NCBI RefSeq assembly: GCF_002795825.1
Contig: NZ_CP018800.1
Location: forward strand, 1,302,001-1,366,000
From: Mariprofundus ferrinatatus
GTDB lineage: Bacteria; Pseudomonadota; Zetaproteobacteria; Mariprofundales; Mariprofundaceae
Direction of reading: 5' to 3'
DNA: 64,000 bases
Shown piece by piece: positions 1 through 13,603 of this stretch. Position numbers and translations under genes: made by a program. Each line of letters begins with the position of its first letter. Positions within the stretch are counted from its first letter, which is position 1. The notes under the pieces are model-generated. The model did not search any database and had not been told where the DNA came from. It saw only the letters and a list, made by a program, of their open reading frames with translations.

Positions 1-823
1 CCACCTGTGCCACGGCGGGAATACCGCGGAACGGCGGCAGCATCATGGCGTACTTGAATGCCACCTCATGCGTATCCTCGGTTTCACCCTTACTGTTGAC
101 GGTTTCAACGTGCATCAGGCCATCTTCGATCTTGGTGGTCTTGGCATTGGTAAGCCACTTGATGTGACGCTGTCGCATCTCGGACTCGAGCATACCCTTT
201 GAATCACCGACACCACCGAGACCCAGGTGGCCGATATATGGCTCACTGGTCACAAAAGTCATCGGAACCTTATCGCGAATCTTGCGGCGACGAAGTTCGG
301 TATCAAGAATCATGGCGAATTCATAGGCAGGACCGAAGCAGGAAGCCCCCTGTACGGCACCAACAACGATCGGGCCGGGGTTCTTGCAGAACTCTTCAAA
401 TGCGTGGTAGGCCTCAACTGCATGATCGACATGGCAGACCGAATGGGTATGGCCGTCAGGCCCCAGTCCATCCACCAGTTCAAATGCAAGTCGCGGACCG
501 GTGGTGATCAGCAGATAGTCATACTCGAGATCGTGACCATTGTGCAGGGTCAGCTTGTTCTCTTTCGGATGGATCTCTTTCACGCCACTGGCAACAAAGT
601 TAATCCCCTTCTTGTTCAGGTACGGACCAACCTTAAAGCTGATATCCTCTTTGGTGCGCCAGCCGACTGCCACCCACGGATTTGAGGGCACAAAGTGGAA
701 GTAGTCCACATTTGATACCACTGTTACTTCGTGATCCTTGCCGATTTTGTTGAGGGCCTCTTTCATCTCATAAGCAGCCGGCATGCCCCCGATACCTGCT
801 CCCACGACTACAATATGCGCCAT
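1..823 (-). CDS. Sulfide:quinone oxidoreductase-like flavoprotein, C-terminus off window
   Basis: FAD-dependent disulfide oxidoreductase that probably oxidises sulfide to polysulfide/persulfide and reduces membrane quinone. Translating the minus strand from the ATG at 823 gives MAHIVVVGAGIGG..., a Rossmann FAD motif at residues 6-12. Cys130 lies in SVCHVDHAVEA and Cys162 in QGASCFGPAYEF; these contexts match two of the three catalytic cysteines of SQR. The third Cys and the C-terminal membrane helices lie beyond base 1. About 274 codons are visible. It is the last visible gene of the rhodanese/DUF302/DUF2892 run, which supports a sulfide role over a generic NADH dehydrogenase. The gene continues past the left edge. 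Confidence 0.85.
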   Translation of the reverse strand, partial: MAHIVVVGAGIGGMPAAYEMKEALNKIGKDHEVTVVSNVDYFHFVPSNPWVAVGWRTKEDISFKVGPYLNKKGINFVASGVKEIHPKENKLTLHNGHDLEYDYLLITTGPRLAFELVDGLGPDGHTHSVCHVDHAVEAYHAFEEFCKNPGPIVVGAVQGASCFGPAYEFAMILDTELRRRKIRDKVPMTFVTSEPYIGHLGLGGVGDSKGMLESEMRQRHIKWLTNAKTTKIEDGLMHVETVNSKGETEDTHEVAFKYAMMLPPFRGIPAVAQV

Positions 824-11106: not shown

Positions 11107-11271
11107 TTAATGATGCGACTTCGACATCAGCTTGAGCATTTTCAGATTGATGACGATAAAGCGGATACCCTGCCAGATCAGGGATGTACGCATGTAGCGG
11201 GTAAAACCGGTCGGGGCCGGCGGATAGTAAGCCTGCTGGTAAGGCTCCTTATTGGTGATTTTGTTTGCCAT
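11107..11271 (-). CDS. 54-residue small protein after the second SQR-like gene
   Basis: Short gene from ATG at 11271 to TAA at 11107-11109, with a strong RBS (GAGGAG, 6 nt spacing). The product starts MANKITNKEPYQQAYYPPAP, a polar Tyr/Pro-rich head, and continues with an amphipathic-to-hydrophobic stretch (about residues 29-47, TSLIWQGIRFIVINLKMLK) and a His-His end. It is 34 nt downstream of the SQR-like gene on the same strand, with only a terminator beyond, so the two form an operon. I do not recognise the family. A membrane-surface accessory peptide of the flavoprotein is a guess. Confidence 0.7.
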   Translation of the reverse strand: MANKITNKEPYQQAYYPPAPTGFTRYMRTSLIWQGIRFIVINLKMLKLMSKSHH

Positions 11272-11305: not shown

Positions 11306-12763
11306 TTAATCTGGCAGCACTGACCAGCCCGGTTTCAGCTTGGCCTGATAGATGAAGGTATGATGCAGAATATACTTCATCCAGTGGCCTGCCAAACCGA
11401 TTTCACCGGTCGTCAGCTCAAGGTCGCGCCCTGTATCCGGATATTTTTCGAAGTCCGGTACTACCGGGAACACAGTCATCGTGGCAGCTGTACCCTTGAA
11501 TATGTGCGATCCGGTTGAAGCCACGCAGGCTGCTCCCATCTCCGCCATGGATGCCGTATGCGTTGGTTCAGCAGCACCATTGACCATATCGCGGATACTC
11601 ATGGCCACGGCTTTCGCCATTGTCGCCGAAGGCATGCCGGTTCTTGGCGGTGTCGGATTGATGGCTGTGCCATTGGTACTCTGCATCGGTTTACTGATCG
11701 GATGCGGAGGTGCGAAAGCAATGCCGACCGCGAATACATTTTTATACTTCGGCGTCTGGTATTTTCTTGGCCAGTCTTTGGCACTCCACTCTGCAAATGG
11801 ACGTGGCGTGTAATCGGCATCCACCTTCATGAAACCGTTGGGTGCAAATACCTCACTGGTAATATCCTCACCCGCATTATTGAATGCCTGCAGACCTACA
11901 CCGGCAAACGGTGGAATCAGCATGGAGAAGTCGAACTCCTGCTCGTGGAACTCCCCATCCAGCGTCTCATAATGAACCTTACCGGCCTCAACCTTCTTCA
12001 CGTGAGCACGGGTAATCCACTCAATTCCACGCTCAACCATGAGGGATTCGGCAAAGGTTTTGCCATTGGTGACATAACCGCCACGTTTGATATGAACACC
12101 GCCCATACCGAAATCGCCCAGTTCGTACTCATTACTGATCCAAACAACACGGGCCATATCGCGAACACCCTCTTCACGCAGAATATGGTCGACATTATAG
12201 ATATATTCGAATGCAGCACCCTGGCAGGTACACATACCGTGACCTGTTCCGATCAGGATGGTGCAGTGCTCACCAGACTTCATTCTCTCAATGACCGCCT
12301 GGAGCTTCTGGTTCGCTTCAATGGCATGGCCCGCGGTACATACCGATACGGTATGGCCGTGATCCGGACCCAGGCCCTCTGTGGCACCAAAGTTGAGCTT
12401 CGGACCAGTTGCATTGATCAGGTAATCGTACTCAACATTTTCCTGCTCACCGGCTTTCTCCGGCAGCGTATATTCAATGGTAATAAACGGAGTTGAATTT
12501 TCTCCGGCACCTTCCGGATTGATCGACAACCCCTTGGCCTGGAGAAACTTCACATTGGTTTTATTATAAACCTCGGCAAGATCGAAGGTGACCTCTTCTT
12601 CCGTCATCTGGCCAACACCCACCCAGATGTTGGATGGTATCCAGTTCCATTTGGCATTGGGCGAAACAACGATGATTTCATGTTTCTTACCCAGCCATTT
12701 ATCAAGGTATCTGGCTGCGGTATGGCCTGAAATTCCTGCGCCTAATATTACGATTCGAGACAT
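11306..12763 (-). CDS. Second SQR-like FAD-dependent oxidoreductase
   Basis: A 485-residue flavoprotein with the FAD motif GAGISGHTAA at residues 8-17. Its cysteines align with those of the SQR at 1-823: Cys142 in SVCTAGHAIEAN and Cys180 in GMCTCQGAAFEY, and a third, Cys413, lies in MGAACVASTG. The C-terminus (GLAGHWMKYILHHTFIYQAKLKPGW) looks like an amphipathic membrane-binding end. An extra CxC (Cys178/Cys180) sits at the active site. It is a divergent SQR type; polysulfide, flavocytochrome-like or another quinone-linked substrate is possible. Its promoter carries candidate operator C. Confidence 0.82.
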   Translation of the reverse strand: MSRIVILGAGISGHTAARYLDKWLGKKHEIIVVSPNAKWNWIPSNIWVGVGQMTEEEVTFDLAEVYNKTNVKFLQAKGLSINPEGAGENSTPFITIEYTLPEKAGEQENVEYDYLINATGPKLNFGATEGLGPDHGHTVSVCTAGHAIEANQKLQAVIERMKSGEHCTILIGTGHGMCTCQGAAFEYIYNVDHILREEGVRDMARVVWISNEYELGDFGMGGVHIKRGGYVTNGKTFAESLMVERGIEWITRAHVKKVEAGKVHYETLDGEFHEQEFDFSMLIPPFAGVGLQAFNNAGEDITSEVFAPNGFMKVDADYTPRPFAEWSAKDWPRKYQTPKYKNVFAVGIAFAPPHPISKPMQSTNGTAINPTPPRTGMPSATMAKAVAMSIRDMVNGAAEPTHTASMAEMGAACVASTGSHIFKGTAATMTVFPVVPDFEKYPDTGRDLELTTGEIGLAGHWMKYILHHTFIYQAKLKPGWSVLPD

Positions 12764-12912: not shown

Positions 12913-12986
12913 ATTATTAAATTAATAATTCTTGATAATTTTACTCAACTTTTACATACTGGAAAATTGGATCGCCCGAGAGGCGA
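12913..12986 (+). promoter_or_regulatory. Promoter and leader hairpin of the 33-residue gene
   Basis: A 17-bp AT-only inverted repeat (ATTATTAA-A-TTAATAAT, 12913-12929) sits where an UP element or operator would lie. It is followed by TTGATA (12932-12937), a 17-nt spacer and CATACT (12955-12960). The predicted leader then holds a hairpin TCGCC-CGAGA-GGCGA (12972-12986) just before the RBS. Confidence 0.5.
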
Positions 12987-13000
12987 CATAGGAGAGCAAC

Positions 13001-13102
13001 ATGAGTGAAGTATTATCAGGCTCGATGGATGGAATTATACTGGGCACTTTAGTGTGCGGCACCGCAGTGGCGTTCTTTTTATTCGTAGGTGGCGTTATTT
13101 AG
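13001..13102 (+). CDS. 33-residue single-span membrane protein
   Basis: Tiny gene with ATG at 13001 and TAG at 13100-13102, preceded by TAGGAGAGC at good spacing. The product is an acidic, Ser-rich head of about 11 residues (MSEVLSGSMDG) followed by one Gly/Phe-rich membrane span of about 22 residues containing a single Cys. A promoter, a leader hairpin and a strong terminator frame this gene alone, so it is probably expressed at a high level as a monocistronic message. I do not recognise it. Size and form resemble small subunits of membrane complexes (CydX- or CcoQ-like in style only, not in sequence). Confidence 0.72.
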   Translation: MSEVLSGSMDGIILGTLVCGTAVAFFLFVGGVI

Positions 13103-13132
13103 TCACCAAATGCACAACATGTACCAGTAGAG

Positions 13133-13158
13133 GTCCCGGCTTGCCGGGGCTTTTTTTT
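13133..13158 (+). terminator. Strong intrinsic terminator after the 33-residue gene
   Basis: CCCGGC-TT-GCCGGG stem extended by one G-U pair, followed at once by GCTTTTTTTT. It lies 31 nt after the stop codon on the plus strand. Confidence 0.9.
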
Positions 13159-13225: not shown

Positions 13226-13603
13226 TCATATTGCCCTTGCGATCTGAATTCCCAGCCAGGTCAGTGTCAGGCAGACAACCACCTGACCAATCACATTACC
13301 GAATGCGAGGGAAACAGCCCCCTCCTGCAGAAGCCTTACTGACTCCAGTGAATAGGTGGAGAAGGTGGTGAAAGCGCCAAGAAAACCAACAGTAAGCGCA
13401 AGCCGAGCCACTTCACTCACCGTGGAACGCTCAATCAACCAGAAAAACAGGAAACCGAGCAGAAAACTGCCAATAGCATTTACGGCGAAAGTGCCCCAAG
13501 GAAAGGCGCCGCCAGCCATCTTCTGAATACCCGATGCCATCAGCCAGCGCATTACCGCGCCTGCTGCACCGCCAATCGCGACAGCAATCAATTGTCTCAT
13601 CAC
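13226..13603 (-). CDS. crcB: Fluoride ion channel CrcB/FluC
   Basis: A 125-residue, four-helix fluoride exporter that works as a dual-topology dimer. Family signs are GGAAGAVMRW near the N-terminus, GTFAVNAIGSFLLGF in helix 2 and GFLGAFTTFSTYSLE with the conserved Phe/Thr/Ser pore residues. ATG ATG at 13603 overlaps the rarA stop, and either Met could start. It is the last gene of the pyrE-to-crcB run. No fluoride riboswitch was recognised before it, so expression probably follows rarA. Confidence 0.93.
   Translation of the reverse strand: MMRQLIAVAIGGAAGAVMRWLMASGIQKMAGGAFPWGTFAVNAIGSFLLGFLFFWLIERSTVSEVARLALTVGFLGAFTTFSTYSLESVRLLQEGAVSLAFGNVIGQVVVCLTLTWLGIQIARAI

Follow-up and report, generated by a model that had tools for sequence, protein, structure and literature searches.

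Both protein and RNA outputs of iron-sulfur stress are well known. Among small membrane proteins, CydX, KdpF and AcrZ are accessory subunits of respiratory or transport complexes, and peptides that depolarise membranes are usually cationic. In E. coli, DinQ is described as SOS-regulated, and YohP (27 aa) is reported to lower membrane potential and silence metabolism. For IscR, PMC3899308 gives the type-1 consensus as ATASYYGACTRWWWYAGTCRRSTAT and describes two iscR boxes in P. aeruginosa, of 68% and 76% identity, which overlap the polymerase site; site B contains TTACTCGG.

The locus described here lies in a window of 64,000 nucleotides from Mariprofundus ferrinatatus (positions 1,302,001 to 1,366,000 of contig NZ_CP018800.1; the host genome is one contig of 2,301,665 bases). 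An initial annotation, made from the letters of the window, had proposed that a membrane microprotein has a transcription unit to itself here, and the promoter, leader hairpin, ribosome-binding site, frame and terminator that it named are all present. The frame at 13001-13102 on the plus strand is confirmed as a genuine gene for a predicted single-span membrane microprotein, previously unclassified, and both its coding status and its one-gene transcription unit are well supported. The parts of the unit and its neighbours are as follows.

11306-12763, minus strand: sulfide:quinone-reductase-like flavoprotein gene flanking the microprotein unit (NCBIfam match below the cut-off)
12913-12920 and 12922-12929, no strand: arms of an AT-only inverted repeat, ATTATTAA and TTAATAAT (perfect 8-bp arms, 1-nt spacer)
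12928-12952, plus strand: putative IscR type-1 box ATTCTTGATAATTTTACTCAACTTT over the -35 hexamer and spacer (20/25 against ATASYYGACTRWWWYAGTCRRSTAT; rank 1 with an iscR-derived matrix)
12932-12960, plus strand: sigma-70-type promoter, TTGATA-17-CATACT (9/12 consensus matches; position kept in three orthologs)
12972-12986, plus strand: leader hairpin, UCGCC-CGAGA-GGCGA (folding; pairs kept across species)
12990-12994, plus strand: ribosome-binding site AGGAG, before ATG (from the sequence and its conservation)
13001-13102, plus strand: microprotein gene, 33 aa, MSEVLSGSMDGIILGTLVCGTAVAFFLFVGGVI, group A (reading frame, relatives, selection, span and helix prediction)
13129-13158, plus strand: intrinsic terminator, GC stem and T8 (folding; stem kept in four species)
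13226-13603, minus strand: crcB, the other flank of the unit

The isc operons of E. coli and P. aeruginosa resemble this unit in having a 25-bp box over the promoter and a cognate Cys3His IscR in the genome. The target here, however, is a membrane microprotein and not an iron-sulfur assembly enzyme, and one putative box is recognised instead of two. CydX, KdpF and AcrZ are alike in size and in having one helix, whereas the present gene shares no operon with a complex, has its own promoter and terminator, and shifts position between species. A single-span microprotein of the stress type would be of a known kind; what is new is the family and the putative IscR-type gate.

The terminator hairpin folds at -16.4 kcal/mol (z -3.58), a value equalled by 0 of 200 shuffles, which bears out the terminator proposed at the outset; a simple terminator scan missed it. 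The good ribosome-binding site is also there, its AGGAG invariant in four species. The leader hairpin is present and keeps 5/5 pairs in 4/4 species, with one-sided changes only, but its folding energy of -6.9 kcal/mol does not stand out from that of shuffled sequence (z -1.09; 30 of 200 shuffles equal it). The AT-only inverted repeat can likewise be found in the window but is absent from all three group A orthologs; for this lack of conservation it was rejected as an operator, and it is perhaps mere AT-rich upstream sequence. The promoter had been called strong-looking, a description that is not supported: its hexamers are mediocre and overlapped by a probable repressor box. A scan of 2 kb gave 7 sites of 9/12 grade against 3.0 (sd 1.7) in shuffles, and a hexamer match of that grade is by itself weak evidence of a promoter.

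A search of 61 related genomes recovered three clear relatives, in G001, G015 and G011 (E 4e-5 to 4e-3). A 4-row profile run over 78 genomes of the class finds the four group A places at E < 1e-15 and nothing else better than 0.014, so that group A is distributed over 4/23 Mariprofundus genomes and 0/55 other genomes of the class. The orthologs, all from other Mariprofundus species, are 35 aa long with 39-48% identity to the window's 33-aa protein; they share its start and stop and differ in length by 6 nt, in frame (two codons). The promoter, leader hairpin and terminator are also present in all three. Between group A units the pairwise identity is 59-97% in the promoter, 66-89% in the leader, 56-86% in the frame and 72-91% in the terminator. 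Just beyond the unit it falls to 22-30% for five pairs, and the closest pair has 58%. The ratio pN/pS is 0.32-0.64, below 1 in 6/6 pairs, and second codon positions are the least changed. Null simulations, in which the observed changes were redistributed, gave an open frame together with a ratio that low at a joint probability of 0.006-0.20 (ungapped 96-nt tails), above 0.05 in 2/6 pairs. Given the kept start and stop, these ratios and the simulations, the group A frame is under purifying selection, with evidence that is moderate to modest pair by pair.

Weak group A hits led to a paralogous unit at 882 kb of the same genome (MSNSNETHDGVEGLGLATMCGGTALAFWAAVVLL), which defines group B. G011, G015 and G020 contain its relatives (E 1e-8 or better); the remaining 4/8 genomes in that search gave E 0.17 or worse, taken as chance. 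Group B is a one-gene unit for 31-34 aa, found in 4/78 class genomes, and in 4/4 units the promoter contains ATACTTGACTT and the stop is followed by a GC hairpin and T-run. Here pN/pS is 0.23-0.33 in 6/6 pairs, with a joint null p <= 0.0007. An 8-row profile of both groups recovers all eight places and puts all others at E 0.0967 or worse; eight of these weak candidates were read by hand, and none was a short frame of the microprotein kind. The two groups co-occur in 3 genomes and together cover 5/23 genomes of the genus; neither was found in the other 18/23, which means that the lifestyle does not require the function. Groups A and B form a two-group family of one Mariprofundus lineage. One leader-like DNA match, at G000:C1:1491989, was set aside as chance, since by eye its translation reads as the beginning of an S18-like ribosomal protein.

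These comparisons also bear on the proposal that the unit is a small regulatory RNA with a chance frame, which the initial annotation would have preferred had the frame been disrupted in relatives; it is open in 3/3 orthologs found. The unit is short, its promoter, hairpins and terminator are conserved, and in 6/6 pairs conservation is higher across the promoter segment than across the frame, as such an RNA would have it. Set against this, frame, start, stop and hydrophobic pattern are kept in 8/8 members of the two groups, and with the quiet second codon positions of group A and the low ratios of group B they make a small RNA extremely unlikely.

Group A matched nothing in Pfam or PDB and had only sub-threshold matches in NCBIfam, and the two of four group B sequences scanned against Pfam gave nothing over the cut-off. 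One group A sequence had no match in plasmids and phages. Two genome_contigs scans for more distant relatives gave, at their sensitivity, a single locus, which was the already known Mariprofundus ortholog of G015; none lay outside the genus. Among the papers listed for IscR and small membrane proteins, for Zetaproteobacteria and IscR, and for Mariprofundus small proteins, none concerns the microprotein gene.

The 33-codon frame with one membrane span agrees with what had been read from the sequence. The window's protein has one hydrophobic span (KD19 2.36), and single-sequence AlphaFold2 predicts a helix over residues 2-32 (pLDDT 89.6); it is predicted to be an acidic single-span inner-membrane protein. 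M1, S2, G7, M9, L14, G20, FF25-26 and GG30-31 are invariant in group A, and both groups share a short acidic N-terminus, GG or CG in mid-span, and FF or FW. Lys and Arg are absent from 4/4 group A and 3/4 group B proteins, the one exception among the eight carrying a single Lys. This charge pattern matters for the reading in which the protein is a DinQ/YohP-type stress peptide that iron-sulfur stress derepresses and that lowers membrane potential and slows metabolism with no single partner. YohP and DinQ are similar in length (under 50 aa), in having one hydrophobic helix and in being under a stress regulator, here suggested by the box; but the likeness seen is in these features, an IscR-type box takes the place of SOS or starvation control, and the lack of Lys and Arg makes a depolarising peptide rather unlikely.

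The promoter evidence centres on the 25-bp palindrome at 12928-12952, which covers the -35 hexamer at 12932-12937. Its 20 matches of 25 to ATASYYGACTRWWWYAGTCRRSTAT are the best in the window on both strands (the runner-up has 19), and all eight microprotein promoters have 19-21. The TTACTCGG of P. aeruginosa site B is also present in the group A promoter of G001, and the promoters of A and B are alike well beyond the hexamers. With a matrix derived solely from the paired boxes that precede iscR in five Mariprofundus genomes, 12928-12952 ranks 1 of 63,976 window positions at 12.0 bits, against 8.4 for the next; the other seven microprotein promoters score 17-22 bits, which makes the window's box the weakest of the eight. 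Among shuffles of the window's AT-rich intergenic region, 39/2000 reach the score of the box. Because the -35 hexamer belongs to the box, a promoter-matched control was built from 626 unique TTGA-type promoter-like sites, drawn from DNA gathered around microprotein and iscR-related genes, and the 19 positions outside the hexamer were scored. The top 13 places went to 5/5 iscR and 8/8 microprotein promoters, each with 13-17 matches; an unrelated site equals the last of them at 13, and the remaining sites have 12 or fewer. Common descent links the eight microprotein promoters, which therefore do not count as eight separate observations. Also against the IscR reading, the right half of the box is degenerate in group B, and the right halves of the microprotein boxes are unlike that of the suf-regulator box.

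The candidate regulator is encoded in the same genome. Its gene precedes a frame recognised as iscS-like by reading its sequence, and in an alignment to PDB 4hf1 the protein has three Cys and a His at the ligand positions and the equivalent of Glu43. The Mariprofundus iscR promoters (L189-L193) carry two tandem IscR-like boxes, 28 bp from start to start, in 5/5 cases. Together these comparisons argue strongly for IscR control of the microprotein promoter. The high expression that had been expected of the protein is not supported: the window's best IscR type-1-like box, lying over the -35 region, suggests conditional, derepressed expression and not a constitutively strong promoter.

The box could also belong to another regulator, for instance a suf-linked Rrf2 protein, or the promoter could simply look like an IscR box while the microprotein is regulated otherwise. 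In each of the five genomes searched, 2 to 3 Rrf2 proteins score above the cut-off of Pfam, and a related box, AAACCGGACTAGAATGGTCGCCTTT, stands before a second Rrf2 regulator that is followed by a suf-like frame (L197, L200, L201 and L202, 4/5 of the loci of this regulator). Part of the match, moreover, is supplied by the -35 hexamer itself. Yet the suf-regulator box has a GGTC right half that is absent from the microprotein boxes, and without the -35 positions the microprotein promoters still rank with those of iscR, above the other 613 sites bar the one tie. A different regulator or a chance resemblance is unlikely, if still a serious candidate.

Apart from the microprotein units, an IscR-like palindrome was seen in two species, at L152:15807-15831 (G011) and L150:579-603 (G016), upstream of a membrane-protein gene with a Urate_ox_N match below the cut-off (E 0.0099). 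This gene is possibly a further member of an IscR regulon.

The chromosomal place of the unit differs between species. In G001, G015 and G011 the group A gene comes after a NodJ-family permease gene and has its orientation, while in the window it lies beyond the flavoprotein gene and adjoins crcB; G020 yielded no group A gene, and its NodJ-flavoprotein-crcB order contains no inserted unit. Group B has a location common to G011 and G015 and is elsewhere in the window genome and in G020. The microprotein unit is a self-contained, movable one-gene unit, and no terminal inverted repeats that would explain its moves were seen around the window unit. The microprotein could in principle be an accessory of the NodI/NodJ-type ABC exporter beside it, since in 3/4 species it comes immediately after the permease in the same orientation. 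In the window, though, the convergent flavoprotein gene lies between the two, 8/12 permease-bearing class genomes have no group A, and group B is located elsewhere; with its position not conserved, the exporter accessory was rejected as very improbable.

Two observations concern the flavoprotein neighbourhood. A 54-codon frame at 11107-11271 (minus strand), just downstream of the flavoprotein gene, has no Pfam match, and a stretch that resembles it by eye follows the flavoprotein gene in G020. Near the left end of the window, at 20-823 (minus strand), is a second flavoprotein stretch with 35% identity to 11306-12763.

The reading that we prefer, with a probability of roughly 0.6, is that of an IscR-repressed, relocating one-gene unit whose microprotein is a conditional accessory that tunes a membrane function during iron-sulfur shortage. 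[2Fe-2S]-IscR would occupy the -35 region and repress the promoter; loss of the cluster through iron shortage, oxidants or oxygen pulses would turn the promoter on. Under repression by holo-IscR the acidic, Lys/Arg-free helix would so be made when iron-sulfur clusters are short. With its small-residue (GG) faces it may pack against a larger inner-membrane protein or alter the membrane, as YohP reportedly does, and respiration or transport would thereby be adjusted while clusters are scarce. This conditional-accessory role of the helix is speculative. The wider proposal, in which two groups of lineage-specific microproteins are gated by iron-sulfur status, the cassette relocates together with its IscR operator, and a respiratory or transport complex is retuned, is more tentative and falls somewhat short of even odds. 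If true, an IscR-driven membrane microprotein would be a new kind of iron-sulfur stress output, in an organism that lives by iron oxidation at the oxic-anoxic boundary.

The strongly expressed, constitutive subunit of the initial annotation fits less well than a conditional accessory. In its most specific form the microprotein would be built into a respiratory complex, for example the aa3 oxidase, as a structural subunit, and 5/5 microprotein carriers do belong to the 7/23 Mariprofundus genomes that encode an aa3-type subunit I, identified by matches below the cut-off of that family. The other two of these seven, G016 and G019, are incomplete drafts (86% and 92% complete) in which neither microprotein was found. 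In a 13-protein tree the group A carriers stand together, apart from G016, G019 and G020 (split support 1.0), and the overlap of aa3 and microprotein follows the tree because of shared descent. Since, in addition, 7/7 aa3 clusters have a 40-aa small membrane protein of their own and the IscR-like box speaks against constitutive expression, a constitutive subunit is improbable, and the partnership with aa3 oxidase was rejected. The same tree places the long-branched G074, of another genus, on the carriers' side of that split, beside the window genome with support 0.81; G074 contributes 1039 of about 4300 residues, and this placement is treated as an artefact of the missing data.

The 40-aa protein of the aa3 clusters is basic and single-span, ends in LYYLISHIPG or LYYLLSHIPG, and is encoded some 4 kb past the coxA start, in L147 (G000, around 710 kb) and its six counterparts L148-L153. 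It has a sub-threshold Coa3_cc match (E 0.0046) and is possibly a small oxidase assembly factor.
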